Positions 12,792-64,000 of a stretch of DNA of 64,000 nt are shown in pieces. How positions within the stretch are numbered: position 1 is the stretch's first letter; each line of letters begins with the position of its first letter. Made by a program: the position numbers and the translations under genes. Origin of the DNA: a virus; IMG/VR virus record IMGVR_UViG_3300028925_012913, positions 1 through 64,000 of that record. One strand, written 5' to 3'. Below the pieces are notes generated by a model. The model did no database searches. It was not told the origin of the DNA and saw only the letters and a list, made by a program, of their open reading frames with translations.

Positions 12792-12852
12792 CAGCGGCCT
12801 TCTCGTTTATCTTACCCCCTGTACCCACGGGTAGGTCGCTGTCCTTTTTTTT
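12792..12852 (+). terminator. intrinsic terminator with long structured loop
   Basis: CAGCGGCCT (12792-12800) pairs with AGGTCGCTG (12833-12841) with one G-U pair. The T run is at 12845-12852. Inside the loop TACCC and GGGTA (12822-12832) can form a further small hairpin. It closes the membrane-protein operon. Confidence 0.85.
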
Positions 12853-12859
12853 GGATAAC

Positions 12860-13162
12860 ATGATGAAAAAAACTGTAGACAAAGAAAAACATTTATTAGT
12901 ATTCTCTGCTAAATGGTGTGGGCCGTGCAGAATGATGAAAGCTCACGTTTGGAATGACCCAGCTATTGAAGACAAGTTAAAGGCGTTTGATTCTGTTAAC
13001 TTTGTAGACATAGATGATCCCAAAAATAAAGCTTTAGCCACGACTTATAGAATCCAAGGAGTTCCTACTATTTATATAGTAGACGAAAAAGGAACACCCT
13101 TGAGCACTGAAAACACAATGGATGTAAACGGAACCCTTAATTTTTTAAGCCAAAATGAATAA
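12860..13162 (+). CDS. thioredoxin (CGPC active site)
   Basis: The 100-residue product has the thioredoxin active site WCGPC (about 21-25) and the later cis-Pro region GVPTIYIV (about 72-79). It starts at ATG 12860 (or 12863). It is a cytoplasmic dithiol reductant. Thioredoxin feeds electrons to class I ribonucleotide reductase, which this phage encodes at 16.7-20.3 kb. It overlaps the second thioredoxin-fold gene by 8 bases. The ribosome site is weak, squeezed between the terminator T run and ATG. Confidence 0.85.
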   Translation: MMKKTVDKEKHLLVFSAKWCGPCRMMKAHVWNDPAIEDKLKAFDSVNFVDIDDPKNKALATTYRIQGVPTIYIVDEKGTPLSTENTMDVNGTLNFLSQNE

Positions 13163-13457
13163 AAAAAATAAACATCAAGTTGTAGTATTTATGACCGCAT
13201 GGTGTCCTCATTGTAAATCTATGAAGCAGAATACTTGGCCTCATGAAAGCGTTAAGAGCGCTATGTCTAAATATCATAATGGTAAAGCCGCTTTTGTTTT
13301 GTGTGACAAGCCTCAAAATAGATACCTAGTAGATGAATTTGATATTGAAAGATATCCCACGGTGGTTATTATGGACGAAGATCACAATATTAAAAAACGT
13401 GCCAATAATATGTCACCTGACGAATTAGTAACTTTTCTAAATGAAGTAGATGAATAA
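13155..13457 (+). CDS. thioredoxin-fold protein with CPHC active site
   Basis: The 100-residue product has MTAWCPHCKSM at residues about 13-23 and the cis-Pro region RYPTVVIM (about 69-76). CPHC is the active site of the strong oxidant DsbA, and it lies here on a thioredoxin-sized protein without a signal peptide, directly next to a CGPC thioredoxin. It could be a disulfide isomerase or glutaredoxin-like helper in the cytoplasm. Its redox potential cannot be read from sequence. Confidence 0.8.
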   Translation: MNKKNKHQVVVFMTAWCPHCKSMKQNTWPHESVKSAMSKYHNGKAAFVLCDKPQNRYLVDEFDIERYPTVVIMDEDHNIKKRANNMSPDELVTFLNEVDE

Positions 13458-32754: not shown

Positions 32755-32974
32755 TAAAATTAAAATGAGTTATAAGCAATCGATAAGATGTAAAATAACG
32801 TCTGGAAGATATGTAGAGTATAAAAGCCTTTCCATATGTTGCATAAATGACTTTTACTCACCAATGAATAAGAAAGTAAAATACCAAGTTCATTCAAAGT
32901 TCTTTAGCGAGCTTTATGATGATATTGAAGAAGCATTAGGTAAATTTTTTGAAATTAGAAGAAAAATTAGATAA
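32747..32974 (+). CDS. hypothetical protein, 75 residues, in polymerase split
   Basis: The product is basic (KMSYKQSIRCKITSGRYVEY) with a cysteine pair (SICCIN) and a helical end. It overlaps the polymerase N-part stop by 8 bases. No intein or intron-endonuclease motif is visible. It lies, with the exonuclease gene, inside the interruption of dnaE. Confidence 0.5.
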   Translation: MSDKIKMSYKQSIRCKITSGRYVEYKSLSICCINDFYSPMNKKVKYQVHSKFFSELYDDIEEALGKFFEIRRKIR

Positions 32975-32985
32975 AGGGTGTAGCT

Positions 32986-33669
32986 ATGAATTATAGGGAT
33001 ATTATCGTTTTTGACTTTGAGACTGGTTCTCGAAATCCAGACAAAACACAACCAGTGCAAATAGCCGCAGTGGCCATTCATGGTAGGAAATTAACTATTC
33101 AACCAGACGGATATTTTGAAAGTTTAATTCGACCTATCTTAGATGATGACGAAGCTATCGAGATGGGATTAGATCCTATTGAAGATGAAGCTTTAGCGGT
33201 TAATGGCAAGACCAGAAAAGAGTTAGCAAAGGCTCCATCAGAAAGAACTGTCTGGAAGAAGTTCGGGAATTTTGTAAACAAATACAATTTTAAAGGGACT
33301 CCTTACTACGCCCCAATTGCAGCTGGGTACAATATCGTAGGTTTTGACATGCCTATCGTGCAGCGAATGTGCGAGCTATACGGCCCAATTGACAAGAAGA
33401 CTGGTAAACAAACTCTTTTTAATAAAATCCACCGAGTTGACGTTATGGATAATGTCTGGATGTGGATGGAGAACAATGCAGATATTAAATCTTTAAGCAT
33501 GGACTCAATGAGAGACTTGTTTGGTATGAGTAAAGAAAACGCTCATGATGCTTTACAAGATGTTAAAGATACTGCTAATTTGATGATAGGCTTTATGAAG
33601 CTCTATCGACGTGTTGCCCCTAAGGTTCAATTTGAAAAGGCTTTTGCTGATGGAAACATCCACATTTAA
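32986..33669 (+). CDS. DnaQ-like 3'-5' proofreading exonuclease (DEDDh)
   Basis: The 227-residue product has all three Exo motifs: VFDFETGS (8-15, Asp10 and Glu12), AGYNIVGFDMPIV (about 117-129) and NAHDALQDVKD with His187 and Asp192. AAAGGG precedes the ATG. Its 3' end overlaps the second half of the polymerase gene by 20 bases. It almost certainly proofreads for the split polymerase that surrounds it. Confidence 0.88.
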   Translation: MNYRDIIVFDFETGSRNPDKTQPVQIAAVAIHGRKLTIQPDGYFESLIRPILDDDEAIEMGLDPIEDEALAVNGKTRKELAKAPSERTVWKKFGNFVNKYNFKGTPYYAPIAAGYNIVGFDMPIVQRMCELYGPIDKKTGKQTLFNKIHRVDVMDNVWMWMENNADIKSLSMDSMRDLFGMSKENAHDALQDVKDTANLMIGFMKLYRRVAPKVQFEKAFADGNIHI

Positions 33670-35242
33670 TCCACTTGAATTAAAGTTTGACGACGAAGTT
33701 ACTTGGGAATTAATTTGCGTAGGAAGAACTAAGGGTGTCTTTCAACTAGAAAGCAATCTTGGTAGATCTTGGGCTAAAAGAGTTCAGCCAAAGAACATTG
33801 AAGAGTTGGCTGCCTTAATTTCTATTATTAGGCCGGGAACATTGAAAGCTATTCAAGATGGCAAATCAATGACTCAAAGGTTTGTTGATAGAAAAAATGG
33901 TTCTGAAGAAATAACTTATTTACATGAATCTCTTGAGCCTATCCTAAAAGGAACTCAAGGCGTTCTTGTATATCAAGAACAAGCTATGAAAATAGTACAG
34001 CAGCTTGCTGGCTTTAACCTTCAAGAAGCAGACGATCTTCGTAAGGCTATTGGTAAGAAGAAAGCAGACCTTATGGCTAAGGTTAAAAAGAAATTTTTAA
34101 AGGGAGCTATTGTAGAAAAGATTGTTAGCGAAGAAGAAGCTGAAGAAATCTTTAGTTGGATTGAAGCTTCAAGTAGGTATTCGTTTAACAAATCTCACGC
34201 TGTGTCTTATGCCATATGTGCTTATTGGAGTGCTTATGCTAAAGCTCACCACCCTCTTGAGTTTTATTGTAGTTACTTGAAACATTCAGGAGGCAAGCCA
34301 GATCCTCAACAAGAAGTGAGAGAGCTTGTTAATGACGCCAAGAATAATGAAATCTATATTAATCCACCTTCTATAAAAGAGATTAATGTAGGTACTGCTA
34401 TTATTGACGATAGGATTCACTTTGGAGTTACTGATATAAAGTCTGTTGGAATAAAACAGGTTGCAAAATTTAGAGATGCTATTGTATTTTTAGAACAGTC
34501 CTCTGGCAGAGAGCTTTGTGATGCAACTTGGTACGAATTTCTTGTCTTGGCTTCTAACAAGGCAAACTCAAGAATGTTAACAGGTCTTATTTCTGTTGGT
34601 TTCTTTTCTCATCTTCCGGAATCTCGTCAAAGAATGTTGGACGAGCTAGATACTTGGTCTAACATGACTAAAAAAGAGATTGAATGGGCAGAAGACAACT
34701 TTGATAGATTTGATAATCTAATATCATTGTTGACAGCAATGGCTCCCACAAAGAAACAGGGTGGTTCAACTTTTAATTCAAAGCGTTCTCAGATTTTAAC
34801 AGACTTAGTAAAACATTGTAAAAATCCGTCGTATGCATTAAATGATGATTCAGGCTGGGTTATACGAACAGAGCAAAACTATCTAGGGGTTGCTTTAACA
34901 TACTCCAAAGTAGAAACCTATGATACATCGGTTGCTAACACAACTATAAAACAGTTCGTGGAAGGTAAACGTGGTAACATTAAAATGGCTATAACTGTTA
35001 GCGAGGTTAAAAGATACGTTGCTAAAAAAGGAAAAGCTAAAGGTTTAGAAATGGCCTTTCTAAATGTAGAGGATAATACTGGAACTCTTGATACAGTGAC
35101 AGTGTTTTCTGACCAATGGAAAAGCTTTAAGAATTTGCTCTACGAAGGAAGCGATGTAATCTTAGTTGGTCAAGATTCTAAAAAGAAACGATATCAGCTA
35201 GACGACGGGTTTATAGTTAATAATGTGATAGAATTAAGTTGA
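33650..35242 (+). CDS. dnaE: DNA polymerase III alpha subunit, C-terminal part
   Basis: The 530-residue product starts best at ATG 33650 (AAGG before it), inside the exonuclease gene. It opens at GVFQLES and IRPGTL, which in intact DnaE follow the third catalytic Asp, and includes VYQEQAMKI, ADDLRKAIGKKK and FNKSHAVSYA. An OB-fold region (MAFLNVEDNTGTLDTVTVF) ends it. Together with the 30838-32754 product it makes one complete polymerase. The FNKSHA site, where cyanobacterial split inteins sit, is intact here. Confidence 0.9.
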   Translation: METSTFNPLELKFDDEVTWELICVGRTKGVFQLESNLGRSWAKRVQPKNIEELAALISIIRPGTLKAIQDGKSMTQRFVDRKNGSEEITYLHESLEPILKGTQGVLVYQEQAMKIVQQLAGFNLQEADDLRKAIGKKKADLMAKVKKKFLKGAIVEKIVSEEEAEEIFSWIEASSRYSFNKSHAVSYAICAYWSAYAKAHHPLEFYCSYLKHSGGKPDPQQEVRELVNDAKNNEIYINPPSIKEINVGTAIIDDRIHFGVTDIKSVGIKQVAKFRDAIVFLEQSSGRELCDATWYEFLVLASNKANSRMLTGLISVGFFSHLPESRQRMLDELDTWSNMTKKEIEWAEDNFDRFDNLISLLTAMAPTKKQGGSTFNSKRSQILTDLVKHCKNPSYALNDDSGWVIRTEQNYLGVALTYSKVETYDTSVANTTIKQFVEGKRGNIKMAITVSEVKRYVAKKGKAKGLEMAFLNVEDNTGTLDTVTVFSDQWKSFKNLLYEGSDVILVGQDSKKKRYQLDDGFIVNNVIELS

Positions 35243-49148: not shown

Positions 49149-49184
49149 AAAAAACCCTCGTCAAGTGATTGGCGAGGGTTTTTT
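49149..49184. terminator. bidirectional intrinsic terminator
   Basis: AAAAAACCCTCGTC (49149-49162) pairs with GGCGAGGGTTTTTT (49171-49184) with one G-U pair and an 8-base loop. The flanking A and T runs let it work on both strands. It separates the rightward genes from the leftward virion-type operon, at the point of convergence. Confidence 0.92.
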
Positions 49185-49213: not shown

Positions 49214-49924
49214 TTATAGGTACTCTAATTCTACATAGAGACCATATTGGGTTTTACTTCCAATGCTGTCAGGAGAAGCCGTGAGGCCCACATACCAGTC
49301 ATGCTGAGTGTATTGACCCGTATTCGCAGAACCATTACCAGCATAGTAGCCACTTGGTCCCGGCGATTGAGCAAGCGGTACAAAGATACCACTTCCGCCT
49401 ACAGTATTAGTACCAGTAGGAAGCCTGTTACTAGGGTTAGAAGACCCAGCATAAGTACCCTGAGCATCTGAACCATCGTGAGTAGCACTTCCCCACCAAG
49501 TAGTGTCTCCAGAACCTTCTACTGAATAAGAATTAGATGGATGTAGCAACTCTGCTACTCTAGTAATAACACCACTAGCAGCATAATCTTTGTTAGTTCT
49601 GTCAAATATTCGAAGTTTACAGTTCTGAGTTCTAACAGCTGAAACGTTAGTAAACCTGACATTTAAACTAGCTTTTTCATTTGGGATATATTTCAAACCT
49701 GTTGCAGGAACGATTCCCGCAGCAAAAGCTTTAGTGTCTGTTGAATATTTAACGTTATTTCCAGCACCACCGTTAGTACTACCATTACCATTGGTAATAT
49801 ATGTAGTATCTTGGAAACTGTTTAATTGTACCGATTGGCCAAAAGAACCACCAAAAAAACCTAATCCAGAACCAGATAGGTTATTTATAGCAGTACTTCC
49901 AGCAAAGAAACTTATTGAGGCCAT
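49214..49924 (-). CDS. predicted virion structural protein
   Basis: The 236-residue product is rich in Gly, Ser, Asn and Thr and predicted all-beta (SLNVRFTNVSAVRTQNCKLR, QYGLYVELEYL). Such a composition is common in phage neck, tail or surface proteins. Its ATG is preceded by AAGGAG on the minus strand and the promoter-like motif at 49957-49965. It lies beside the other leftward virion-type genes. No specific family. Confidence 0.55.
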   Translation of the reverse strand: MASISFFAGSTAINNLSGSGLGFFGGSFGQSVQLNSFQDTTYITNGNGSTNGGAGNNVKYSTDTKAFAAGIVPATGLKYIPNEKASLNVRFTNVSAVRTQNCKLRIFDRTNKDYAASGVITRVAELLHPSNSYSVEGSGDTTWWGSATHDGSDAQGTYAGSSNPSNRLPTGTNTVGGSGIFVPLAQSPGPSGYYAGNGSANTGQYTQHDWYVGLTASPDSIGSKTQYGLYVELEYL

Positions 49925-49967: not shown

Positions 49968-50531
49968 TTAGTCAAAAAAGCCTTTTGTTTTCGTAATTTC
50001 TTGTTGTCCATTCTTATATGGAAACATTTTATTAATCTTACGCTGTCTTTCGCTGCATCCACAATCTTTATTAAATGCATCAAATACAGTTTTAACAACT
50101 TTCTTAACTCCGGTTACTTTATTAAACTTAGCGAACGTATCCCCTAAACCTCTAGACCGTAAAGGTATTTCAGGGTCTCCCATAAAGAACTTCTGCTCTT
50201 TATCTTCTGCTTCCTCTTTTGTGATCGTAACAGACCTGTCAAAACCACCTTGTGTTATTATATCCTGCATTGGTCCTTCTCCAGATTCCCACATGTCAAA
50301 ATAAGATTGCTTGTATTTACATAAACCATGTAGAGATTTACTCTTAATACATTTATGTCTATTACAAACTAGACTCTCTTGACCTTCTTCAATTTTGCAT
50401 TCACAAGGCGTGACAGCAGGAAACTTTTTATTAGAAGATGAAGCCATATTAAAAACCTGTGGCTTTTTCCTCTTTGGATATTGCTCCTCTAAAAAATTAC
50501 TGTCGTCTTGTTCCTCGAAAAAACCCTTCAT
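49968..50531 (-). CDS. hypothetical virion-associated protein with cysteines
   Basis: The 187-residue product has CECKI, CNRHKC, CKYKQSYFDMWESG and the end DCGCSERQRKINKMFPY, a motif seen in other phage genomes by recollection. Seven to eight Cys suggest a metal site or disulfides. GGAG lies in the 3' end of the giant gene, whose stop is one base away from this start. It probably belongs with the virion genes. Confidence 0.5.
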   Translation of the reverse strand: MKGFFEEQDDSNFLEEQYPKRKKPQVFNMASSSNKKFPAVTPCECKIEEGQESLVCNRHKCIKSKSLHGLCKYKQSYFDMWESGEGPMQDIITQGGFDRSVTITKEEAEDKEQKFFMGDPEIPLRSRGLGDTFAKFNKVTGVKKVVKTVFDAFNKDCGCSERQRKINKMFPYKNGQQEITKTKGFFD

Positions 50532-50532
50532 T

Positions 50533-53500
50533 TTATTCTCCTTCTTCTACTACAGTTTCATGTATGTTGCAATGAATTACTGAATTTCCTGATATTCCAA
50601 ATGCCAACTCTAAGTCTTCAAACACAGGCCCGTCATAATGATCTGGGTAACAATTATCAGAACATTCATGATAACTCATAGGGCCTCTTGAGTTACAGCA
50701 TATTTGTGGGAAATCTAGCCAGAAGTCTAAATTAACAGGCTTGTCACTATTATGATCCCTGCAATTATTTTCTGGAGCTGGAGTTCCAACAATAACATCA
50801 AATGCTCCACCATGCCTAGTCCAATAGGAATATGGATCATCCCAAAAAGCCTCATTAAGCCCACCTTCTTCTTTACCTTCATCTCTGTCTAGATATGTAG
50901 TATATGCTTTTTTGTCTTTATCTGACATATCCAAATCTTCTACTTCTGTGATATGTATAACCCCTTTCCATTTTCTTTTTGTTATACCCCAATGATAAAT
51001 AGATGCAGGCCAACTGGGATTGTGGGTATCAAGATCGGGGTTATGGTCGTGATATGCCAACTCCATATTTTTACTAGTATTTTTAGTGGATGTTGGTGAC
51101 AGACTAAGTACGCTAGGAGTGTTAAAGTAAACGTCATAAAGAACCACACCTTTTACCTTAATTTCTAACGATTTCGTAAGATCTTCGGTCAGCACTAAGC
51201 ATTCTTTAGGATCGTAGTCAAGATCACTCCCGTCAAATATTAGAAACTTCTCGCCCTGTCCTGCCGCCGAGCTCGAAGCAATGCATTTAAAATTTGGTAC
51301 TAGTTGACCGTCAGCGGATAAACAATCTTCAGTTTCGTTTACAGTTAAGACTGAATCACTCCGTTTTTGTATTTTTCCAGTAAGTTTATCTTTACAACCT
51401 ATGTATACTTGTTCAGTTATGCATTCTTCAGACTCTTTACACTTTTTCGTTGCATCTATGTATTCTTTATGTTGTTCCATGAGAATGTCATCACTTCTAT
51501 TTCCAAATATTGAATCTATGCCAAAAAGAATATCACCATATCCATATTTAGCATCCTTGCTTAAAAGGTAGTTTTCAAATTTTGAGGAATTGTCTGTAAT
51601 GCCTTCATCATTAATAGTGATGTGAGTTTCATCAGATATTACAAATCCTGTTTTTAATCCGTAAAAATCTAAAAGTCTAGCATCTCTCGTTTCATTAAGA
51701 ACGCGTTCGTTGAGACGTTTAAGGCTATATAAATCCATCTCTATATTTCCGGAAACTATATGGCTTCCATCTATAGGGCTTAATGGACATCCTACTAGCT
51801 CTCCTTCTTCATCTATAATACAATCACTACATTCTCCTTCAGGACTGTCATCTGTCATTGGACTACATGCGTTCTCTGAGTAGAAACTTCTTAATTGACA
51901 TCCTATAGGACATCCATCCTCAAAATCTTTCTCTCTTCTTTCTAGATCTTTAGGTTTATCATTGTTAGGGTCTACATAAACGTTACTAAAGGTACTGGTG
52001 TTATGTTCACCGAAGTTTACCATGTCATCATTTCTAATACCGATTATCCATTTTCCACCAAAAGCTTCACATAAAGTTTTATCTCCGTCTGGATAATCGT
52101 TTATGACTTGAACCCATTTTCCATTTTGTTCTGTACATTCATTAATATTTAAACCTTTTCCTGAGCCGTCATCGATGTCACAATATCCCATTCGTGACCC
52201 TTTGCATGTAGCTCTATAAGAAATGGTAGAACTGATAAGTAGTTTTTCATTTGCTTCAAAATCTTTAAAGTCATTGTTTGTGTCAACATGAGTGAATAGG
52301 AAGTCAGGAAGCCATACGTATCCACTATCAATGCATATGTTTTTTGGATTTACTTCTCCTGACAACGAATCCGGAAGGTTTGGATTACCAACACAATACC
52401 CATTACCGTGACCGCCCAAGTCCTTGTAGTAATTTCTAAACCCTGTTATCTTAAGGGCTTTTTTCTTACCAAACTCTAAGCTGTTTTCTATAGACCATCT
52501 AACTCCAGACCTTCCGGGATCATCAATATCACCCATTGTTCTAAGGCTTTCTAGATTATTCGAAAGAACTTTTCCTTTTGGCCACATCTCACTCTTAGAA
52601 GTACCTGACCGAGTTTGTGTTCCAACTGGATAAGGGTTTATTCCAAAGGGGTGTGGCAGTAACTTATTAGATTCTTTTTTACTAAATGAAGGCGCTTCTA
52701 TCCACTTACCTCCACATGTATCTACTGAACTTTGCTCTCTGTCAATCTCGCCTTCACAAGTTGCTTTATTTGGACATTCGAGAGATCGTTGCCAATAGCC
52801 AGTAGGGCCGAATTCATCATCACAAGATTGTTGAGTATGTGTTTTTCCAGTTAGAAAGTGAGATTTGACAAGATGGGCTGACTCGTAACCATCCGATCCA
52901 TCATACCCTTTTTTCCAACACCCCTCTTCAATTTTAGTATCACATTTGTCCTTAGAAATATCTCTCCCAAATTCAATATCACCGTATTTTAAATGTCTAT
53001 TCTTTCGTGGATTCTTAGTAATAAACTGAGTTACATCATCAACTTCAATTAACATATACTCATTACGGTCATCAATCTTCCTGCCTTCACTTGCTCCAAA
53101 TTCACTAAGAACAGATTCTCCGTCTTTTATAGGACTCTTTAAAACAGTTCCTCGTAAATATGGGTTCTTGGGTTTGTTATTTCTAGAAGAACTCCCTAAA
53201 GTGTCAGACTCTGCATCTTGTAAATCAGCCAAGCCAACACTAATAGTAGTTCCAGCCGAATAAGAACAATGACGACCATTTCCCGTAAATGGATAAGCAT
53301 TAACTACAAGAGTTCCTTCTCCTGTCTTATGATTAACATCGATTATGTCATAAACAGTAAAAGTCTCGGATTGTTTTTGAGGCGTTGGATCAAAACCTAT
53401 AGTTTGACATTTATGAGCTATGTCTCCACCTGTAGAACAAGCAACTGCTCCACTCCATAAAGGTCCCGTGTTATGAAGTGGTTTATCTACCCCTTCGTAT

Positions 53501-56500
53501 GTACAACATTTAGTTCTCCAACAGGGGCCTTTTGGCCCACAGTCACGGGAAGTCACACAGGTTCCAACAAAAGCATATTTTCTTTCATCATTAGATGGGC
53601 CTTCGGTTTCGGAAGGCCAATTTACTGTTATTTTATCCTTCTTTTCTACATTACATCCTAAGTAATTCGGAAAACAAGGAGGACTGCCACTAACTCCATC
53701 AATTACGCGATTTCCTCGCAATGTCTCTGATATTCCATCGTCATGAAAAGTGCAATTAGTAATCTCAGCCCAAAGCCTGATTCCATTATTATTATAAGAA
53801 TGAGGACCCGGTCCAAAACCGCCATCTTTTAACTCCCCATCTTCTATAGAAGGTATAGCATTTCCACAGCCCATTATTAATCTAATAAAATGACCATCTT
53901 CAGTCCCTGTGTAACCAGTAGGAGGATAAACTACAGGATCCCTTGGTGGGCGTATATCTCTATATTTACCGTTACTTCTATTCCATACACCTCTTCTTAT
54001 AGACTGAGGTAGATCGCACCCGTCACAATCAGAATTTATAGGAGTAATAAAATTAGAATCACCCCCTTCATCCCCTACTTGACACTTAACCGGCCAAGAT
54101 AATTTTAAACATTGTTTAGTTCCAACTCTTTGCATTAGAGTCCATTCAGAACGCCAAACAGTTCCGTCATATTCTAAATCAACATCTAGAAGAGAATCTA
54201 ACATCCAAATTTCCTCCGCGTCTTCACAATCCTCTTCCGTGGTAATAAGTGGATTGTTTAAACAATACCCACTATCTTCAGCAATATCTTTTCCGTTAGT
54301 AAGACCCGGACATGTATTATTTACCGCATGCATTCCTTGCCCATAATCATAACAAGATGCATTAGCAGTCGCTAAAGTAGACCCTCTAGGACCACATCCA
54401 GTACTATCTGGGTTATCGTAATAATCTTTACCAGTTTGAAGTTTGCATGATTCCAAGCCTTCAACATTTGTATCAGAGACTTTTTCTGTTTCGCAATGCA
54501 TTGCAACATTATTAGGAAAACAAGAACATGGATCAAAGGCCCAATAATATATTCCTCCTGACTCAGTACCTCCTGACATAGGAAAGTAAACTTCACATGT
54601 TCCTGTTAATTCGCCTATAGTAACTACACCCAAAAGTCTTGTAAGATTGCAATCTCCAGCTATATTAATAAACTCTTCGCATTTAGGAAATTTGTTAATG
54701 TTTGGGGTGCAATCACAAGAGTTAAAATCGTCGTTTGGACCGTTTTCGCCTGATGCACAACAAGATCTATTATTTTTACTAACCAATGCGTTTTTAGAAA
54801 TACCATTAGAACCTGTATCAGGATCGTTTTTCCATCTCATTGGAAGCTTATTCTGCTCACTATAAACCTTTGAGCATTTTCTACAATTTGTAGTTGATTC
54901 TTCGTTTAGTCTTTTTCTTAAGAAAAGCTCACATTCTGTTTTCCCGTTACTGTTTCTAGAAAGAGGATAGAATGTTCCATTGCTGTTTTCACATTCATCT
55001 TTTGTATGAGCAACAAGAGTAACACCCTCAGAGTCTTTACATATACCAAAAAGTTCAGGATTTGCTTTACAAGCCTCTAAGTCTAATAAATTACACCCGT
55101 GGTATGTATCTGAACAACAAAAACCATCTCCTATGATTGCGTCATTATAATCTTCAATCCAAACATTAGGGTTTTTACAACTATATTTATCAAATTCTAA
55201 TATATTTCCTAACGGGTCTAAACAAACTCTAGGTTCAAAACAAGGATCTATAGGGCAAGTTATTAGGTTTAGAATCTCGCTAGATTCAGGATTTAATGTA
55301 GCCGTAAGTTTTTCTGGCATGAAATGATCACAGCAGACAGGACAGATTCCCTTTTGCTCAATTTGTACATAGTAGTCATTAGCGTCTGATTCTGAACGCT
55401 TACTAATTCCTCCGAAACTTTCCCTGTATTCTATATTAAAAGAAGAAGGGCTTTGATGAACCATGTATTCTGGAACTATATCTTGTGTGTATGTTATCCA
55501 TTCCCCAGTAAAAGGACATACCTTATAGACAGAACCGCCATATTTTCCGACTCCGCCCGAATTTGCGGCTATAGATCTTTCATCAGCCCATGTTCCAGCA
55601 CTCCAACATTTGTCAAAGTTTGTACCGTCAACAACGCATTCATTGTATAGACCGTTTGAAACAGTGGGTTCTTGCCATTTACCATCATAGACTGAACACA
55701 TTGCTTCTGTGAGGTTGGGATCAACTTTACCATCAATAATACATGCAGTATGTTTTGCTTTACAAACCTTACTAAAGTCTTCAAAATTAAAAATGTTATT
55801 TAAAAGTTCTTGACTATTATCTCTATCCCCATTTAAATCAAAGCAAGCAGTAGTATACTTTTGTTTAGTGTCCGTATACTCTGACTTTGGATGCAACTCA
55901 GAAAAAACCTTAGCTAATTCAGTACATTCTTCTTTACTAATAAAAGATTCCAAGGGGTCTTTGGTTAACGCGTCAGCAATTATTGAACACGTTCCATGTT
56001 TGGAACATGTTGATTCATCAAAATTAGATCCTTCTCCTATATCTACCATAGTGGGTAACTCAACACTACCTGACACGTCTGACTGCATATAAAGCACGGG
56101 CACAACTTTATAGAGAGCTTTTTCTATGATTTTTTCATAGGTTGATATTCCATAGTTAGAAATACAAGCCATCTTAATATCTTCAGTTTCACATTCTAAA
56201 TCTCCTGAAAGATTGATTCTATTTGTGATTTGTCCATCAATAGGAGTCTTATCACATGTGTATAAATCAAATGTGTCTATTGTTGTGTTTTTTACAACAA
56301 AGAAGGGAGCTGGGTCAGGATCTTCTCCTTGAACTACAGTTCCATCACAAGCAAAATACTTTGACTTATCGCAAAACTCAACCCATGTTCCGGGATTAAT
56401 CCATTTTGCCCCTCCACATCCTGCGGGACCATTCTTAGAACAGTGAAAGACAGCAGATGTCCATGTAAATTCTGGAGCAGTGCAAAATCTCTCCTCTAAA

Positions 56501-59500
56501 TCAACGGTCTCTCCACTAAAAGCGTTTATACATTTACCGGGTTCTTTTACGGTTTTAGAATATCCATCAGGACAACCTCCTTTATTGTCTAAAGGTTTAG
56601 TACTTCCTTTGGCATCAAGACATTCTTTTTCTGACAAGCAGTTTTTGCCGTCATCTTTAAGTATTTCTTTGTCATCTGCGCCTACACATTCTCCAGTACT
56701 ACAGCTTAAAGGAGTTTTGTTTGGTATTTCATTTCCGCTACTGTCTTGACATTTAGATTCGTAAGGGCAAATAACATCAGGCCAAGTAATATTATCGCAG
56801 CTTTCTCCAACGCAAGGTTTATAAAGAGTGTCTTCCCATTGGATAGCCTGCTTCTCTTTAAGAGACATTACATTAGCAACAAAATTTCCTAAGACACCCT
56901 TAACGTCAACTAAGTCTCCATCACGCAATTTATGCTCTGGGGATGTGATTTGTACAGGAACGTCATTGCTTGCGTAACTAATTCTTCCTGATCCAACAGT
57001 GCCTACACATGTATTATTAACATAGCTAGCAATTTCTGGTTTAGGAATCAGGCCAGTTTCAGCCCAGTAATCCATAGCGTTCCAGTTTTGCCAACTTGCA
57101 TCGATATCTTCTTTAATAAGAGGTCTTTGTTTGATTAGAGAGTTTTCTCTTAACGGGTATCCTTCATAACCATGATAAACACCTACTCTATGAGCTTCAA
57201 ACGTTGAATCAGGTAAAACAGAGTCGTCATATTCAGCAAGTCGATGTTTATCTTTTTCGGATTCGTCTGAGCATTCAGTTTTTGTTATAGGCTCTTTTAC
57301 TACTGTAGTTACTTCACCAGAATCGTTTTCATATAGTGTGCATTTTCCTATTTGATCTCCAAATACAATATCAGCAAAATCTTCTGGAATTTCTACGGGT
57401 TCAAGACATTCTGTTGTAACTAATGTTGGAGCACATCCCTCATTCCAGACACCATCGGCTCCGCCATCTTCTATAGATTTCTCACATTCTTCTTTGTCTA
57501 CAGCATCTCTCCAGCCACCTGTTCCAGTCTCGGGATCCATAAATCCTATCTGCTGGTCACACTCTTCACTCCATGAACAACACCCACGCCATGGTTTAAC
57601 AGGCTTCCAAGTGTAATTTTTTTCATTACAGGAGACTTCTGTTGTGGCTTCTTCAACTTCTTTATCGAGATCGTTATAGCATTTTCCTTTATCTCCACAG
57701 CCTTGGCTTCGATTTGCATGTTCAAAAGTTCCATCTTGATGCTCGCAGGTTCCAGCCTGACTGCATTTATGTTCATCGGTTGCTGAACAAGCAGGACAGC
57801 TAAAATCATTAAATTCAGAATCGAAAGGATACCAACCCGCCCAATTAGAAAACCCGCAAGTGCTATTTGTTAAGAATCCAACATGACTATCTACGTATTT
57901 TCTAGCCATTATAGAAACTTTTTCACATTCTCCTTGCTTAGGACATGGCTTTGCAGGAGTCCACACGCCGTCACATTGTTTTGGATTTATGCATGTACTT
58001 TCATATTCACATGCAGTAGGGGCGGTCCATTTTCCGTTACACTGTTCAGGATGGGTACAGTCATCTTGATTATTACAAGAACTACCCTTTTTCCATGTTG
58101 CACCATTGGCTCCACATTTTTCTTTGTCTTCGCAGTCTTTTTGAGTTAAACATTCTTCACCCCGAACCCATTCGGCTCCAACAGACCCACATTTATCTTT
58201 ATCTAGACAGTCTTCTTTATTAAGACATACAAGTTCTTCTACCCAGTCACCTCCGCATGTAGCTGCCGGACTTTGTTCTCTATCAACCTTACCTTTACAA
58301 GTTGCTTGATTTGGACAAACAAGCCTTCGTTGCCAGTAATTCAATGTACTCGCAGCAACACAAGTTTGTTGAGTGTGTGGTTGTTGAGTAAAATGGTCAT
58401 TTGGGACAAGATAGGCTGGCTCATAGCCAGCCGATGAAGTAAGCCCTTTTACCCAGCACCCCTCTTCTATCACGGTATCACACACTGCTGGTACTGACTT
58501 ATCGCAATAATCTGGAGCGTGTCTGTCACAGTAATCAGGACGGTCTGAATCACAACTTCCTTTTCTTTTTTTACTACAAGTTCCGCCTCCTTCTACACAA
58601 TCTTCGTCATAATCGGTTGGGAAAACGCTTGTATTTGCTATTCCACCTGAGCCGCTTACACTAATTTCATCATGTTGAAGAAAATCATAATACAAGAAAT
58701 AGTCCGGACCATAGTTCAAAAACCAATTTCCCCCCGTGCTGGAAAAACCGGGTTCAAGACCAAAAGTGTGATTAGCACAGAGATTCCAATGCCTATGATC
58801 TATAGCCGCTGATTCTAAACTCTTTACTCTGTTTTGTCTTTCTTCTGCTGCTTTGAAGGGCTGTGGCTGTAAATTAAATCCATAGAACCTATCAGCCCCT
58901 TTAGGGTTAAGTATATTACCAAAGAACTTACGATTAGTCATTTTGGTATAATCTTCATAAAGAACAGGTCTGTCTAGTCCTTCTTCGCCCTTATCATAAT
59001 ATGCCCACTGACTACAATGAGATCCACTATAATCAAATCCTCCCCTATCATGATTTTCATGCCATCTATCTTGGTTTAGTTCAGGAAAGGGTAGGTCTTC
59101 TCCATCCGAACCTCTTCCGCTTTGATATTCAAGCACTCCGTCGGCTATACCATCCTTATTAGCATCGGGATTATTACACCACCAGCTCCATTGATTCCCA
59201 TTAATAGCGTCTCCGGGGAATGGGCCAGCGATAGCACCCGGCCAATTTGAATTAAAGAGCATATCCGCAGGGTTACCCATGAGGTCACCCATTGTAAAAT
59301 TCCACATAGGTTGAGGTTCACGCCATCTAGATGGACTTGTATGATATTCTCTATCTGTAGATCTTTTAGAAAGCCTTGGGTGTTCTTGCTTGTAACCAAT
59401 GTTCGTGGACATCACGCCAACAAATGGAGTCTTCCTATCACTTAACGTCAAATTAAAGTTAGAATCATTTAGAATTTGGTTTGCCGGGATGTTAAGGATT

Positions 59501-61200
59501 ATTTCTTCTCCACATCCCGTCCCCCAATCGTAATCGTCGTGAGAACCTTCGGAACTTTTAGTCCCTGATATTCCTTCTTCTGAACAAGACTTCCAAAAAT
59601 TACAAGGTCTTATTACTAAAGTCCAGTAATGTTCAGTATCTAATAAAAATGTTTCTCTATCTTTTTGGTTATTGACTGATACTGTAGGAGCAGTAAGAAC
59701 AGCTTCTAAATGAGGAGTAAAACAAACAGAGTTTTCTGAATCAGGGCTATCAACGCCTACCATCTGAGGAGTTCTAGACGGATGATTACTATCTAATATA
59801 GATTTTCCACAACAAGACTGTTTTTCGTATTCCCAGTCAACCCATTCGTAATTTAAAGATTCATTGTCTTTCCAATGATACCCTTCGTCTAATAAAGATA
59901 GACATTCCGTTTTATTTAGTGCTGTTTTTTTATTATCCTCAGAATCAACACAATATTGAGTATCTTCAGATTCAATACCGTCGGCTATACATTCTGACTT
60001 GTCTTGTATTTTTACCCTTGTTCCATAAATTGGGTTTCTACACCAAGGGTTTTTCTTCTCTGGGGTAAAACCATCAGCAATACAAGCCTTATCTAACCGG
60101 GCTATTGGCAAAATGCTTGACGTTCTAGAATTAACAAGAGGATCAGTATCATAGTTTAATGGTTTCATTAATCGGTCATCATAAGCGATTAGATCTTCAT
60201 CAAATCCTAATATTTCACGATAGTTGAAATATGGCTTCCAGTCTTCTTCTCCTACTCTAGGATGTGCAAAATGAGGTGAAGCTCTATCGTAACCACCAGT
60301 TCTTTTCCACAGTCCGCTATCTTCGTCAAGAATTAATTCTTGTTGATCATTACTATGTAGAAATTCGCCGTGAAAAAAACCTTCACCATTGGGTTCATGC
60401 TTATTTCCGCTATTATCATATGCATTATTTGCATAATGACAATCAGAAGGAAGAAAATCCGCACCCCAGATATTATTAGACGAGTGCATTGTAGTCGTTT
60501 TACAGGGGTCGCAATAATTACCATTAGGTATTTTTGAACAACAAGCCCTACCTCTCCAAGCCCCATTAGAATACTTTAAATGTAGAGTATAACCATCGCC
60601 ACTCCATATGTTATTTCTAGCATCCCATCTACCACCCTTCTCTTTTGTTACAGTTATTGCTAACTGCTGAGGTAGTATAGTTTGAGCTCCTGATAAACTA
60701 GAGCCATCTGTAGTTATACAGCCACATCCTTCTGTACAAAATCTACCACCCCTACGGTCTAATAGGGTTTCTCGGTCTTCCGGTTTTTGACTTTGTGGTA
60801 CATTATGAGAATTATCTGGCATCCATTGTTCAAAGCCAGTCCATTCATTTTTTACCAAGAGTTCGGTATATGTATATTCTTTTACCCAATTACTGCCACA
60901 TGTAGTCGTTGGGCCAGTTTCGCGATCTTTATCTGCTTCACAAGATTCTTGACTATCACAAACAAGCTTTGATTGCCAATAAGTAGCATCAGGAACGTTA
61001 TCCAAAATACAAGTTGCTTCTGTATACGTATCGCCATTTCTATCACTGCTAATTTCACTAGCAGGTACATAATTCCCATCCTTATCTGTGTAACCTTTTA
61101 TCCAACAGCCCACCCAGACAGGACTGCCACATTCACCAGCGTGAGTAGCTTTTTTGGTATATAGAGGGTTGTATGAAGTATCCCAAGGGTCTCCAATCAT
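50533..61200 (-). CDS. giant cysteine-rich virion-type protein, 3555 residues
   Basis: One uninterrupted frame of 10.7 kb encodes a protein with very many Cys, Trp and Gly. It contains three copies of an ~80-residue module (60886-61131, 58243-58482, 52702-52944) of the form C-x7-GCWxKG … YWQ … C-x5-C … D(K/R)E … TCGxxW, and a run of ~21-residue CxxxxxC-type repeats (57930-58243). Dozens of short C-x5-9-G-x-W units lie between (for example CTEQNGKW, CEAFGGKW, CSVYDGKW). There is no signal peptide and no clear membrane helix. The N-terminal RWDARNNIWSG segment is shared with the next protein upstream. Size, repeats and genomic place suggest a long surface fibre or brush on the virion. No family is recognised. 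Confidence 0.75.
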   Translation of the reverse strand: MIGDPWDTSYNPLYTKKATHAGECGSPVWVGCWIKGYTDKDGNYVPASEISSDRNGDTYTEATCILDNVPDATYWQSKLVCDSQESCEADKDRETGPTTTCGSNWVKEYTYTELLVKNEWTGFEQWMPDNSHNVPQSQKPEDRETLLDRRGGRFCTEGCGCITTDGSSLSGAQTILPQQLAITVTKEKGGRWDARNNIWSGDGYTLHLKYSNGAWRGRACCSKIPNGNYCDPCKTTTMHSSNNIWGADFLPSDCHYANNAYDNSGNKHEPNGEGFFHGEFLHSNDQQELILDEDSGLWKRTGGYDRASPHFAHPRVGEEDWKPYFNYREILGFDEDLIAYDDRLMKPLNYDTDPLVNSRTSSILPIARLDKACIADGFTPEKKNPWCRNPIYGTRVKIQDKSECIADGIESEDTQYCVDSEDNKKTALNKTECLSLLDEGYHWKDNESLNYEWVDWEYEKQSCCGKSILDSNHPSRTPQMVGVDSPDSENSVCFTPHLEAVLTAPTVSVNNQKDRETFLLDTEHYWTLVIRPCNFWKSCSEEGISGTKSSEGSHDDYDWGTGCGEEIILNIPANQILNDSNFNLTLSDRKTPFVGVMSTNIGYKQEHPRLSKRSTDREYHTSPSRWREPQPMWNFTMGDLMGNPADMLFNSNWPGAIAGPFPGDAINGNQWSWWCNNPDANKDGIADGVLEYQSGRGSDGEDLPFPELNQDRWHENHDRGGFDYSGSHCSQWAYYDKGEEGLDRPVLYEDYTKMTNRKFFGNILNPKGADRFYGFNLQPQPFKAAEERQNRVKSLESAAIDHRHWNLCANHTFGLEPGFSSTGGNWFLNYGPDYFLYYDFLQHDEISVSGSGGIANTSVFPTDYDEDCVEGGGTCSKKRKGSCDSDRPDYCDRHAPDYCDKSVPAVCDTVIEEGCWVKGLTSSAGYEPAYLVPNDHFTQQPHTQQTCVAASTLNYWQRRLVCPNQATCKGKVDREQSPAATCGGDWVEELVCLNKEDCLDKDKCGSVGAEWVRGEECLTQKDCEDKEKCGANGATWKKGSSCNNQDDCTHPEQCNGKWTAPTACEYESTCINPKQCDGVWTPAKPCPKQGECEKVSIMARKYVDSHVGFLTNSTCGFSNWAGWYPFDSEFNDFSCPACSATDEHKCSQAGTCEHQDGTFEHANRSQGCGDKGKCYNDLDKEVEEATTEVSCNEKNYTWKPVKPWRGCCSWSEECDQQIGFMDPETGTGGWRDAVDKEECEKSIEDGGADGVWNEGCAPTLVTTECLEPVEIPEDFADIVFGDQIGKCTLYENDSGEVTTVVKEPITKTECSDESEKDKHRLAEYDDSVLPDSTFEAHRVGVYHGYEGYPLRENSLIKQRPLIKEDIDASWQNWNAMDYWAETGLIPKPEIASYVNNTCVGTVGSGRISYASNDVPVQITSPEHKLRDGDLVDVKGVLGNFVANVMSLKEKQAIQWEDTLYKPCVGESCDNITWPDVICPYESKCQDSSGNEIPNKTPLSCSTGECVGADDKEILKDDGKNCLSEKECLDAKGSTKPLDNKGGCPDGYSKTVKEPGKCINAFSGETVDLEERFCTAPEFTWTSAVFHCSKNGPAGCGGAKWINPGTWVEFCDKSKYFACDGTVVQGEDPDPAPFFVVKNTTIDTFDLYTCDKTPIDGQITNRINLSGDLECETEDIKMACISNYGISTYEKIIEKALYKVVPVLYMQSDVSGSVELPTMVDIGEGSNFDESTCSKHGTCSIIADALTKDPLESFISKEECTELAKVFSELHPKSEYTDTKQKYTTACFDLNGDRDNSQELLNNIFNFEDFSKVCKAKHTACIIDGKVDPNLTEAMCSVYDGKWQEPTVSNGLYNECVVDGTNFDKCWSAGTWADERSIAANSGGVGKYGGSVYKVCPFTGEWITYTQDIVPEYMVHQSPSSFNIEYRESFGGISKRSESDANDYYVQIEQKGICPVCCDHFMPEKLTATLNPESSEILNLITCPIDPCFEPRVCLDPLGNILEFDKYSCKNPNVWIEDYNDAIIGDGFCCSDTYHGCNLLDLEACKANPELFGICKDSEGVTLVAHTKDECENSNGTFYPLSRNSNGKTECELFLRKRLNEESTTNCRKCSKVYSEQNKLPMRWKNDPDTGSNGISKNALVSKNNRSCCASGENGPNDDFNSCDCTPNINKFPKCEEFINIAGDCNLTRLLGVVTIGELTGTCEVYFPMSGGTESGGIYYWAFDPCSCFPNNVAMHCETEKVSDTNVEGLESCKLQTGKDYYDNPDSTGCGPRGSTLATANASCYDYGQGMHAVNNTCPGLTNGKDIAEDSGYCLNNPLITTEEDCEDAEEIWMLDSLLDVDLEYDGTVWRSEWTLMQRVGTKQCLKLSWPVKCQVGDEGGDSNFITPINSDCDGCDLPQSIRRGVWNRSNGKYRDIRPPRDPVVYPPTGYTGTEDGHFIRLIMGCGNAIPSIEDGELKDGGFGPGPHSYNNNGIRLWAEITNCTFHDDGISETLRGNRVIDGVSGSPPCFPNYLGCNVEKKDKITVNWPSETEGPSNDERKYAFVGTCVTSRDCGPKGPCWRTKCCTYEGVDKPLHNTGPLWSGAVACSTGGDIAHKCQTIGFDPTPQKQSETFTVYDIIDVNHKTGEGTLVVNAYPFTGNGRHCSYSAGTTISVGLADLQDAESDTLGSSSRNNKPKNPYLRGTVLKSPIKDGESVLSEFGASEGRKIDDRNEYMLIEVDDVTQFITKNPRKNRHLKYGDIEFGRDISKDKCDTKIEEGCWKKGYDGSDGYESAHLVKSHFLTGKTHTQQSCDDEFGPTGYWQRSLECPNKATCEGEIDREQSSVDTCGGKWIEAPSFSKKESNKLLPHPFGINPYPVGTQTRSGTSKSEMWPKGKVLSNNLESLRTMGDIDDPGRSGVRWSIENSLEFGKKKALKITGFRNYYKDLGGHGNGYCVGNPNLPDSLSGEVNPKNICIDSGYVWLPDFLFTHVDTNNDFKDFEANEKLLISSTISYRATCKGSRMGYCDIDDGSGKGLNINECTEQNGKWVQVINDYPDGDKTLCEAFGGKWIIGIRNDDMVNFGEHNTSTFSNVYVDPNNDKPKDLERREKDFEDGCPIGCQLRSFYSENACSPMTDDSPEGECSDCIIDEEGELVGCPLSPIDGSHIVSGNIEMDLYSLKRLNERVLNETRDARLLDFYGLKTGFVISDETHITINDEGITDNSSKFENYLLSKDAKYGYGDILFGIDSIFGNRSDDILMEQHKEYIDATKKCKESEECITEQVYIGCKDKLTGKIQKRSDSVLTVNETEDCLSADGQLVPNFKCIASSSAAGQGEKFLIFDGSDLDYDPKECLVLTEDLTKSLEIKVKGVVLYDVYFNTPSVLSLSPTSTKNTSKNMELAYHDHNPDLDTHNPSWPASIYHWGITKRKWKGVIHITEVEDLDMSDKDKKAYTTYLDRDEGKEEGGLNEAFWDDPYSYWTRHGGAFDVIVGTPAPENNCRDHNSDKPVNLDFWLDFPQICCNSRGPMSYHECSDNCYPDHYDGPVFEDLELAFGISGNSVIHCNIHETVVEEGE
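52702..52944 (-). repeat. 80-residue Cys module, copy 3
   Basis: This part of the giant gene encodes CDTKIEEGCWKKGYDGS, HTQQSCDD, GYWQRSLECPNKATCEG and DREQSSVDTCGGKW. It is closely related to copy 2 (HTQQTC, YWQRRLVCPNQATC, DREQSPAATCGGDW) and more distantly to copy 1. Nucleotide similarity to copy 2 is still clear, pointing to duplication. Confidence 0.85.
57930..58243 (-). repeat. tandem ~21-residue Cys/Trp repeats
   Basis: Within the giant gene about five consecutive units have the form C-x5-C-x5-C-x4-6-W, for example CLTQKDCEDKEKC, CNNQDDCTHPEQC and CEYESTCINPKQC, each followed by a Trp. Period is about 60-66 bases. They continue directly from copy 2 of the larger module, so the module may be built from this unit. 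Confidence 0.8.
58243..58482 (-). repeat. 80-residue Cys module, copy 2
   Basis: This encodes CDTVIEEGCWVKGLTSS, HTQQTCVAAS, YWQRRLVCPNQATC and DREQSPAATCGGDW, highly similar to copy 3 at 52.7-52.9 kb. Confidence 0.85.
60886..61131 (-). repeat. 80-residue Cys module, copy 1 (N-terminal, divergent)
   Basis: Residues 24-105 of the giant protein: CGSPVWVGCWIKGYTDKDG, YTEATCILDN, TYWQSKLVCDSQESC and DRETGPTTTCGSNW. The spacing of Cys and Trp follows copies 2 and 3 but sequence is more diverged. Confidence 0.8.
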
Positions 61201-61215
61201 ACTGTTAACGCCTTA

Positions 61216-63030
61216 TTATTCAGTTTGTGACCTGATTGATGTGTTTGGATAATCGTCATCCGGGCCGCAATCTTCACCTGTAGCAAACCCTTGTGCAAAA
61301 AACTTTCTAGAACAAGCAGCCATCTCGCCTCTGTCACAACCAGCATGTGTAATAATTTCCATACCATAAAACTCACCTTGTAAAATTATATGAACTGGTA
61401 TAGATTCTGTAACAGTAATTTCTTTTCCACCTTGACCTCCACATCCCGGAGTATCACTTCTTTTGTAAGTATGGCTAACTCTCTTACCAGTATCATAACT
61501 AAAAAATGCATCTCCTGCCATTAATCCCTGACCCATTGGGTTCTCAATAAATATCTTCTCATACAAAAGATGCTTAGCATACTGAGTCCAAGTTTCATCT
61601 TTTCCTATTTTAGCATTTATAGTCTCTGCAACTCCCATATAACTAGAACCCCATCCATGACAAGGATTTCCAGCTCTTCTAGCGTGAGGATGGCCTCCTT
61701 GGGCCTTCCTAAATTTATCAGTACAGTCACTGACAGTATTCTTCTCGCCTACTAATTCTTCTACAGACCTTAGTATAAACCCATCATAGAATGGCACACA
61801 TCCATCTGCAAAATCCCCACATGCAGTAATGTTTCCAAATGTTTTACAAACGCCACACCAGTTATGATCTTCTGGATCGTATATTTCAATATCTGGATAG
61901 TACAAACTTGTAGGAAAATATGACTGATAAGTGCATTCCCGTGTGGGGCAAGGGTTTCTATATAGTCTTCCGGGAGAAGTTATATTTCCACCTACTCCTA
62001 AATCAAAAGAATTATTACCATCCATACCAGCTTTTGGTAATATACATTTAGCAGTTTTACTAAGATAAATACCATTATGTTTACCACCACTCCATACTTT
62101 TCTTTGGTTGTCCCATCTTAAGTCTACTGGTCCTACCTTCCATTTGTCTTGTCTACTAAGATGATGAGGAATAAAGTGCTTATGATCTTTTTCAAGGCCT
62201 ACAATATTTTTTGCACGCATTTGAGAAGGAACGTGTTTTTGTTTTCCAAAGTCTGTTTCTTTATAGTCCCCTTCTCTATAGTCGGAATCATCACGCATGT
62301 TAGGAACAGGAAATCCTCCAATTGTGTCATATCCCCATCCAGCAACTACTAAAGGCCCTCTAAGACCGACAGGTCTTTCGGTATTTACAGAAACTTCTTT
62401 TGCGCTAACCAAGTTGGAAGTGTCTATAGAAAACCCAGTGTTCTTAGTTACGGGATTAGTGATTTCTTCATTTTTATTAACAATTTGAATATGGTGGCCG
62501 GAAGCAAACGGATTTAGCGAAATGGATGTGATGTGAGTGGGAGAAGGTGCATTAGGCCCTAAAGCCGGATGGGTTACAACGGGACCACTATAAATTACCG
62601 TCTCTTTTAACACGTCGTCTTTATCTAATACACTATAAGGTCTTTCAAAAGAGGGCATAGCCGCTCCGTCACTTGGTCTATTCTTATCTTTAACTTGACC
62701 ACTTTCACTTCGTATTACAAAGTTGGTTGAATAAGGAACAAATAAACCATCTAATGATATCCCTCCAGTTTTAGACCAAGCCCCATCTGATGGATATTGA
62801 TCCATGTTAGCAGAAGACGATGTGGTTTGAGTGTGGGTAGAGACGTCCTGTATGCGAAAAGGGGAATTTTCATAATCAGGATGACCATGCCAAAACATGG
62901 TACTATCAGTACCGTCTGTAGCTACAACAGAAGTGTCTGGATAATTAGCACTTGTTATCATCAAGTGACTAAAATCGTTATCTTCTCTGTTTTCAGAAAT
63001 TGTTCGTGCTGGTTTTTGTCTCTCTGGCAT
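61216..63030 (-). CDS. predicted virion structural protein, 604 residues
   Basis: The product is rich in short beta segments and turns, with a C-terminal cysteine-rich part (CPTRECTYQSYFP, CGVCKTFGNITACGDFADGC). It contains VDLRWDNQRKVWSGG, a motif also present in the giant protein (RWDARNNIWSG), so the two are related over a short domain. It lies 15 bases upstream of the giant gene in the same operon. No named family. Confidence 0.6.
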   Translation of the reverse strand: MPERQKPARTISENREDNDFSHLMITSANYPDTSVVATDGTDSTMFWHGHPDYENSPFRIQDVSTHTQTTSSSANMDQYPSDGAWSKTGGISLDGLFVPYSTNFVIRSESGQVKDKNRPSDGAAMPSFERPYSVLDKDDVLKETVIYSGPVVTHPALGPNAPSPTHITSISLNPFASGHHIQIVNKNEEITNPVTKNTGFSIDTSNLVSAKEVSVNTERPVGLRGPLVVAGWGYDTIGGFPVPNMRDDSDYREGDYKETDFGKQKHVPSQMRAKNIVGLEKDHKHFIPHHLSRQDKWKVGPVDLRWDNQRKVWSGGKHNGIYLSKTAKCILPKAGMDGNNSFDLGVGGNITSPGRLYRNPCPTRECTYQSYFPTSLYYPDIEIYDPEDHNWCGVCKTFGNITACGDFADGCVPFYDGFILRSVEELVGEKNTVSDCTDKFRKAQGGHPHARRAGNPCHGWGSSYMGVAETINAKIGKDETWTQYAKHLLYEKIFIENPMGQGLMAGDAFFSYDTGKRVSHTYKRSDTPGCGGQGGKEITVTESIPVHIILQGEFYGMEIITHAGCDRGEMAACSRKFFAQGFATGEDCGPDDDYPNTSIRSQTE

Positions 63031-63041: not shown

Positions 63042-64000
63042 TTATCTAAACTGGTCTACGTTTCGTTTTACTCTAATCAGCTCTTGCTCTGCTCTAACCA
63101 AAGATCTCATTAGTTCTCGTTGCACTTTTCTTAGTCTCTCTTCGTAAATTTTTTCTAAACTACCAAATTTGTTTTGAGTGCTAAAGTTGTAAGTAGTATT
63201 AATACCATTGGTTCCAATGTTTACAGATATGTCTGTTACAGGAGGGCCTTCGTCGCCTGTGCTATTACCCTTATCAATGTTTATTCCTAATCCGTACTTT
63301 GGTGGCCCTGTTAGGGTTACAGATCCTGCTTCGTAATACCTCTCTGTATCTTTTAACGCGCTATTAATATTTGCTACAGCAGACATGTCCATGATTGTCT
63401 CTCCACCAAAACTTGCGGGGTTATATGAATCGTCTATATCAAATTCTGGTTTACCAAACTCTAAACCAAAAGCCCAAGGTCCCCATCTATAAGAAGTACT
63501 TTCTTGAGGAACTCCTGCATGCCAAGGTTTATAAGCAGCCGCAATAAAAGACCCTTTACTCAGGTCGCCAGCTACTTTTTGTTGCCCAAGAAGATTGTTT
63601 TTAAGAGCATCAATCTGTTGATAACCAATATCTTCTGGAGACTGTCCCATAAACCAAGCTCGGGTTAAAGCAAGGCTATTTTCTGTATTCACTAAAGGAA
63701 TTTCAAACGAATGTTTAGACTTATCACTAGACGAAGAAAGCCCATCGTTAGTCTTGTAGGAAACCCTTGCTGGCAAAGTAATTAAAGCGTAAGGCTTTTT
63801 AGCAAAAGCTGTTTCGCCGCTTGTAGTTTCTTTCCATTCGTAAGGCCTTGTACAATCATCCTCATTTGCCTGTTTAATGTCTCCGATTTCGCATTCTGAA
63901 CCTTTATCATCTACACATTCACATCTTCCCTTTAAAGAAAACTGTTCTAATGATCTAGGATTAAGTTCTGTTTTTCCGGGATTGTTGCTAGGGCCTATTT
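63042..64000 (-). CDS. predicted virion structural protein, truncated by window end
   Basis: The frame runs open from 63042 to the window edge; a TTG at 63774-63776 is an internal codon, not the start. Upstream residues include GRCECVDDKGSECEIGD, so this protein also has cysteines. The C-terminal part is helical and basic (EKIYEERLRKVQRELMRSL, VRAEQELIRVKRNVDQFR), while the middle is Gly/Asn/Thr-rich. The beginning of the gene lies beyond the window. Confidence 0.6.
   Translation of the reverse strand, partial: IGPSNNPGKTELNPRSLEQFSLKGRCECVDDKGSECEIGDIKQANEDDCTRPYEWKETTSGETAFAKKPYALITLPARVSYKTNDGLSSSSDKSKHSFEIPLVNTENSLALTRAWFMGQSPEDIGYQQIDALKNNLLGQQKVAGDLSKGSFIAAAYKPWHAGVPQESTSYRWGPWAFGLEFGKPEFDIDDSYNPASFGGETIMDMSAVANINSALKDTERYYEAGSVTLTGPPKYGLGINIDKGNSTGDEGPPVTDISVNIGTNGINTTYNFSTQNKFGSLEKIYEERLRKVQRELMRSLVRAEQELIRVKRNVDQFR

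Follow-up and report, generated by a model that had tools for sequence, protein, structure and literature searches.

A probable tail-tip protein of 3555 residues with near-invariant cysteines and lineage-specific cassettes in a family of tailed phages

What would a tailed phage do with a single protein of 3555 residues, 176 of which are cysteines? The gene in question lies within positions 1 to 64,000 of IMG/VR virus record IMGVR_UViG_3300028925_012913 (this 64,000-nucleotide stretch is called the window below). Known tail tips contain few cysteines, and a core of cysteines that stays near-fixed among homologues as distant as about 41% identity would make this an unusual virion part, at once stable and modular. 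The explanation that we favour, with somewhat better than even confidence, is that the protein is a structural component of the tail tip, most likely its outermost, receptor-contacting appendage, whose segments would be pinned by local disulfides and diversified by cassettes.

Gene and composition

50533..61200, minus strand: giant cysteine-rich protein, predicted for the tail tip (3555 aa, 176 Cys; homologues on eight other viral contigs)
55183..55626, minus strand: most conserved backbone block of the giant protein (aa 1859-2006), containing DYYVQIEQKGICPVCCDHFMP

The giant open reading frame begins with an ATG codon and is free of internal stops over its full length, so the cysteine-rich protein described in a first-pass annotation of this DNA is borne out. 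Cysteine makes up 4.95% of the residues and tryptophan 2.3%, and CxxC motifs are scarce (six among the 176 cysteines). The N-terminus (MIGDPWDTSYNPLY...) has no export-type features, in agreement with the same annotation. A dN/dS of 0.27, calculated for one pair of close homologues, indicates purifying selection on the gene family.

Genome organization and host

The window belongs to a record of 69,266 base pairs (bp). Replication, nucleotide and sugar genes are encoded on the plus strand (including a DNA polymerase III-type polymerase, ribonucleotide reductase [RNR], dUTPase, SSB and glycosyltransferases), and the tail genes are on the minus strand. Both sets run towards a meeting point near 49.2 kb, with a terminator-like hairpin located there (49149-49184), such matches being no commoner than in shuffled sequence. 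Two plus-strand genes bear on the host and on the possible chemistry of the giant protein:

1296-2528, plus strand: DUF1501 gene with a twin-arginine-like N-terminus (PF07394, E 2.3e-69)
2849-3166, plus strand: A-type Fe-S carrier of the IscA/ErpA family (TIGR00049, E 1.5e-32), present among the relatives searched only in the window and the near-identical contig G002

The DUF1501 gene is kept in G002, G005 and G009 and, distantly, in G021. Its nearest cellular relatives are mostly from Planctomycetota (up to about 46% identity), which hints at a host in that phylum; a literature search found no papers on planctomycete phages. To judge by their metagenome identifiers, these phages are probably marine. 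The DNA polymerase III alpha region (30838-35242, plus strand) is split into two open reading frames (638 and 543 aa), between which lies an exonuclease-like frame of its own (32986-33669). A homologue of M19 membrane dipeptidases (11066-12292, plus strand; PF01244, E 6.3e-51) is also encoded in this phage genome.

Homologues and tail gene order

Homologues of the giant protein were found on eight IMG/VR contigs besides the window: G001 (locus L004), G003, G005, G006, G009, G040, G361 (L301) and G362 (L303). As G005, G006 and G009 are mutually close, about seven lineages carry the gene. Complete giants are about 3424-3810 aa in length, contain 141-197 cysteines and share 40-57% identity with the window protein. 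Relatives were collected by a DNA polymerase scan of viral contigs, which gave 38 contigs, and further ones by scans with the 187-aa neighbour, with the mini-domain and with alignments of the backbone; pattern scans of viral contigs with a single giant, a single hub or the three-copy module alignment gave no confirmed matches. Pattern-based scans miss divergent members and most relatives are fragments, and the absences reported here apply to the data searched.

The neighbours of the giant gene in the window are as follows:

63042..64000, minus strand: C-terminal portion of a hub-like protein (2074 aa or more in all, extending beyond the window) with C..C..G..W mini-domains; putative role assigned by position
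61216..63030, minus strand: 604-aa tail protein (13 of 13 cysteines invariant); distant relatives also encode homologues, and in two of these phages the homologue is fused to the hub
49968..50531, minus strand: 187-aa protein encoded immediately downstream of the giant, with the motif DCGCSERQ..NKMFPY
49214..49924, minus strand: 236-aa protein (MASISFFAG...), the last gene of the tail cluster, with a similar N-terminus in distant relatives

The remaining 5.3 kb of the record show that the gene for the hub-like protein, upstream of the 604-aa gene, extends past the end of the record; its product is a putative hub, judged by position and length. In G003 the genes are arranged in the order tape measure (assigned by a PHROG match, E 1.7e-25), 879 aa, 789 aa, hub-like protein (2026 aa), 604 aa, giant (3690 aa), 216 aa and 236 aa, and parts of this order are seen in G009, G006, G040 and the window. 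The giant is thus encoded behind the tape-measure gene and two genes downstream of the presumed hub, an order that places it at the tail tip, and it has the same tail-cluster neighbours in each relative whose contig covers this part of the genome, down to about 41% identity. The first-pass annotation had spoken of a large disulfide-laden or metal-laden fibre on the virion: gene order and homology do support a large cysteine-laden tail component of the virion, but the term fibre is unproven, since gene order indicates the tail tip or baseplate and structure prediction yielded no fold.

More distant phages keep a homologue of the hub-like protein and mostly also one of the 604-aa protein; a giant homologue is undetectable in them. 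In two of these phages (G015 and G016, loci L160 and L161), the hub-like and 604-aa homologues form one fused protein. In G021 (L165:1457-7312), the slot of the giant is occupied by an apparently unrelated protein of 1952 aa with 88 cysteines; this phage shares with the family no more than homologues of the hub-like and 604-aa proteins.

Database and structure searches

No Pfam, PHROG or PDB match was found for the giant protein. A tblastn search with its first 2900 aa against 50,697 phage records returned no match, nor did searches of the same records with the hub, 604-aa and CPHC proteins (the last is described below). A pattern scan of genome contigs with the central block of the giant was likewise empty. 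The first-pass annotation had raised a captured host surface protein as something that a module profile might reveal; no such protein was found in Pfam, PHROG, PDB or 294 Planctomycetota genomes (0/294 with the module), although this profile does pick up the copies already known. Structure prediction of one module, also proposed there, could be carried out with AlphaFold, but at low confidence: with four to five sequences, the pLDDT was 63 for the module and 28 for the backbone, and Foldseek found nothing with the module model.

These results bear on the reading that the gene is captured cargo, which would encode a secreted factor or a surface protein of the host, lie in the tail cluster by chance and contribute nothing to the virion. 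The giant is indeed unlike known phage proteins, and cell surfaces often display cysteine-rich modular proteins. However, the same tail-cluster neighbours accompany the gene wherever the region can be seen, the protein carries no export signal, and neither its central block (with the patterns used) nor its module has a cellular match in the genomes scanned. We consider capture very improbable and have rejected it.

Cysteine conservation

The cysteines of the giant protein are its most conserved feature. In a core of 2466 gap-free columns from five lineages (about 42-57% identical to the window protein), 115 of 124 cysteines (93%) are invariant; the corresponding values in the same core are 53% for tryptophan, 52% for glycine and 11-48% for the rest. 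When seven lineages are compared, 92 of 115 core cysteines (80%) are invariant, versus 24% of all residues. The neighbouring tail proteins behave similarly: in three lineages, invariance extends to all 13 cysteines of the 604-aa protein and, in the core of the hub-like protein, to 21 of 23.

Between invariant cysteine anchors, lineages differ in cysteine number, usually by 2, 4 or 6. In two pairs that do not overlap, window/L004 and G003/G040, 18 such differences are even and six are odd, which is suggestive only but would fit cysteines being gained and lost as bonded pairs. Paired phyletic patterns of the non-invariant cysteines in ungapped columns are not significant (p = 0.36), and some giants have odd cysteine totals (165). 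Cysteine losses in the divergent L303 protein are clustered, mostly in one deleted eight-cysteine block, and say little on pairing.

According to the first-pass annotation, the protein would need either disulfides or bound metal to fold. The metal reading holds that the cysteines coordinate zinc or Fe-S clusters in a metal-laden tail tip, comparable to the Fe-S clusters that lambda gpL and the RcGTA hub are reported to contain and to the iron-carrying tails proposed for marine phages. Metal-cysteine sites are known in tail tips (PMC11445458), and the window itself encodes the Fe-S carrier listed above. That carrier is, however, missing from the giant-bearing contigs other than the window, CxxC motifs are few, and the giant matched no family in Pfam, PHROG or the PDB; the even-number differences fit bonded pairs, although four-cysteine sites would also give even numbers. 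HxH motifs occur zero to two times per protein at positions that do not match between lineages, and an iron fibre of the T4 HxH type was rejected on this basis. The scarcity of CxxC, the lack of conserved HxH and the confinement of the Fe-S carrier to the window and G002 favour disulfides, to which the invariance of the cysteines and the even-number differences also point, and we regard the metal reading as unlikely.

Modules, tandem array and mini-domains

Four cassettes were located in the window protein:

60877..61131, minus strand: module copy 1 (aa 24-108), an insertion absent from G003, G006 and G009
58234..58482, minus strand: module copy 2 (aa 907-989), with 71% DNA identity to copy 3
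57943..58227, minus strand: tandem array of four C-x5-C-x5-C..W units (aa 992-1086), absent from G003, G006 and G009 and rearranged in L004
52696..52944, minus strand: module copy 3 (aa 2753-2835), cleanly inserted and missing even from the L004 homologue, which is 56% identical

The module is about 85 residues in size and contains six cysteines. Its three copies were correctly recognized in the first-pass annotation, as were the tandem array and the resemblance of copies 2 and 3 in DNA, which extends over about 270 nt. At the protein level these two copies are 57% identical (E about 1e-25), and copy 1 shares 34-38% identity with them. The array, which lies C-terminal to module copy 2, was missed by Tandem Repeats Finder because its units are too diverged. 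The loose motif C..G-x-W matches 21 times in the giant, about 2.6 times the shuffled mean of 8.1 (maximum 15 in 500 shuffles); the motif is enriched, but "dozens" was an overstatement. The strict form C..C..G..W occurs 12 times versus a shuffled mean of 4.6 (maximum 13 in 300 shuffles), and in two homologous hub proteins it occurs 10 times versus 0.9 and seven times versus 0.7.

The three modules and the array are insertions specific to the lineage of the window and not, as first thought, the scaffold of the protein, the conserved signature of which is the set of about 110 core cysteines. All three sites are empty in G003, G006 and G009, and the module profile, which does find the copies known from the window and G001, matched nothing in G003, G005, G006, G009, G040, G361 or G362. 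In L004 the module-plus-array cassette stands before, not after, the GG.WF.NYGPDYFLYYDF segment, so that it has either moved or been inserted independently. No convincing terminal repeats were found at the module insertion sites. Two-cysteine C..C..G..W units also come and go between lineages. Near aa 3100-3210 of the L004 giant frame, a 111-residue insert resembles, by eye, part of the protein that the window encodes at 9008-9988 (DETITIEDADGVVKTYTAKAS / DETIVIVDAAGTSRTFTAKGS).

A DNA-pattern scan for the mini-domain matched 30 stretches, about 24 of which fall within long in-frame open reading frames of diverse phage contigs, which suggests that it recurs as a building block, so far without annotation, in other phage proteins. 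The form CSDPxYTTexxCxxxGxxWT is found at loci L173, L168, L189 and others of L167-L196; the proteins that contain it are diverse (about 170-2000 aa), and some have tandem copies.

These observations can be accommodated by a model in which the giant is a long mosaic of small segments, each pinned by some of the many local disulfides that the near-unchanging core cysteines would form. Self-contained Cys/Trp cassettes (two-cysteine mini-domains, the six-cysteine module and the module-plus-array unit) would be inserted or lost between the pinned blocks as lineages diverge.

Thioredoxin-fold proteins

Disulfides would have to form somewhere, and the bacterial cytoplasm is normally reducing, which counts against their formation there. 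Two adjacent genes may be relevant:

12851..13162, plus strand: thioredoxin-fold protein with a CGPC active site
13155..13457, plus strand: thioredoxin-fold protein with a CPHC active site, PDI-like, without an export signal

The CPHC protein scores 45.9 bits against PF00085 (cut-off 23.5), which identifies it as a thioredoxin-fold protein, and CPHC is the active site of DsbA. Below an E value of 1e-6, the only PDB sequences that it matches are PDI-family chains; because the CGPC neighbour matches PDI-family chains besides thioredoxins, these matches are weak evidence. The best NCBIfam match, pdi_dom, reaches 36.8 bits versus a cut-off of 107.2, so a PDI domain is not assigned. Lacking an export signal, the CPHC protein would be expected to work in the cytoplasm.

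The two active-site motifs are conserved in all giant-bearing contigs that reach far enough (G000 [the window], G003, G005, G006 and G009), and the pair also occurs in G002, the polymerase protein of which is identical to that of the window. Contigs without the pair (G001, G040, G361 and G362) end too near the giant on that side, to judge by the spacing of roughly 37-39 kb seen in G003 and the window. In distant relatives, thioredoxins are absent or differently built: those at L296 and L299 (G021 and G013) have a hydrophobic N-terminal segment and a cysteine-rich stretch before the CxxC domain. As the giant-bearing phages form one clade, the co-occurrence of giant and thioredoxin pair may be due to co-inheritance.

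It is quite conceivable, if somewhat short of an even chance, that any disulfides arise only by air oxidation after lysis and that both thioredoxins simply serve the phage RNR. The RNR genes (16722-20312) lie 3-4 kb from the pair, thioredoxin is an established reductant of RNR, and one member of the pair has the ordinary CGPC site. Nevertheless, a second, strictly conserved protein with a CPHC site, whose close PDB matches are confined to the PDI family, would be superfluous as an RNR reductant. A more tentative proposal is that the phage lineage has its own cytosolic oxidative folding, in which the CGPC thioredoxin and the CPHC protein, as a PDI/DsbA-like oxidant, build a disulfide-crosslinked tail tip with disulfide-stapled cassettes swapped into a fixed cysteine frame. 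The CPHC protein might then help to fold the giant by aiding bond formation in the host cytoplasm, which suggests a virus that disulfide-staples its own host-attachment apparatus. None of the papers listed by a literature search dealt with phage-encoded oxidative folding; the conservation of the CPHC protein makes deliberate disulfide formation in the cytoplasm by a phage directly testable.

Comparison with known systems

The CPHC protein resembles PDI, DsbA and thioredoxin in its Pfam-assigned fold, its W-C-P-H-C-K site and a PDI-style YPT before the second half. It differs from DsbA (roughly 200 aa, with an export signal and a helical insertion) in being 100 aa in length, which is too short for that insertion, and in having no signal-like N-terminus, as expected for a cytosolic protein; it differs from PDI in scoring below the NCBIfam cut-off.

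With respect to tail proteins, T4 gp37-type fibres and their relatives bind iron through HxH motifs (PMC11705849), and iron-carrying tails have been proposed for marine phages. The giant would similarly be a large tail appendage of phages that are probably marine, and a metal reading is possible for it, but the HxH motif is not conserved in its family. Structural cysteines or metal-cysteine sites, involving only a few cysteines, are described in the tail tips of lambda (gpL), RcGTA and JBD30 (PMC11445458). The giant is like these siphophage tail-tip and hub complexes (lambda gpL/gpJ, the RcGTA hub and the JBD30 baseplate) in the position of its gene behind the tape measure and in having cysteines at the tail tip. 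It is unlike them in the number of cysteines (141-197 versus a handful) and in showing no detectable sequence similarity; homology to the gpL-type hub domain with its four-cysteine cluster site was not found, as neither the giant nor the hub nor the 604-aa protein matched anything in PHROG, Pfam or the PDB. A further counterpart is the unnamed mini-domain found here, C-x-[ND]-P-x-Y-x5-C-x3-G-x2-W, a unit of two cysteines and one tryptophan that the family's hub proteins contain and that appears in looser form in the giants: to this unit, the giant adds a conserved cysteine-rich backbone and larger modules that are lineage-specific.
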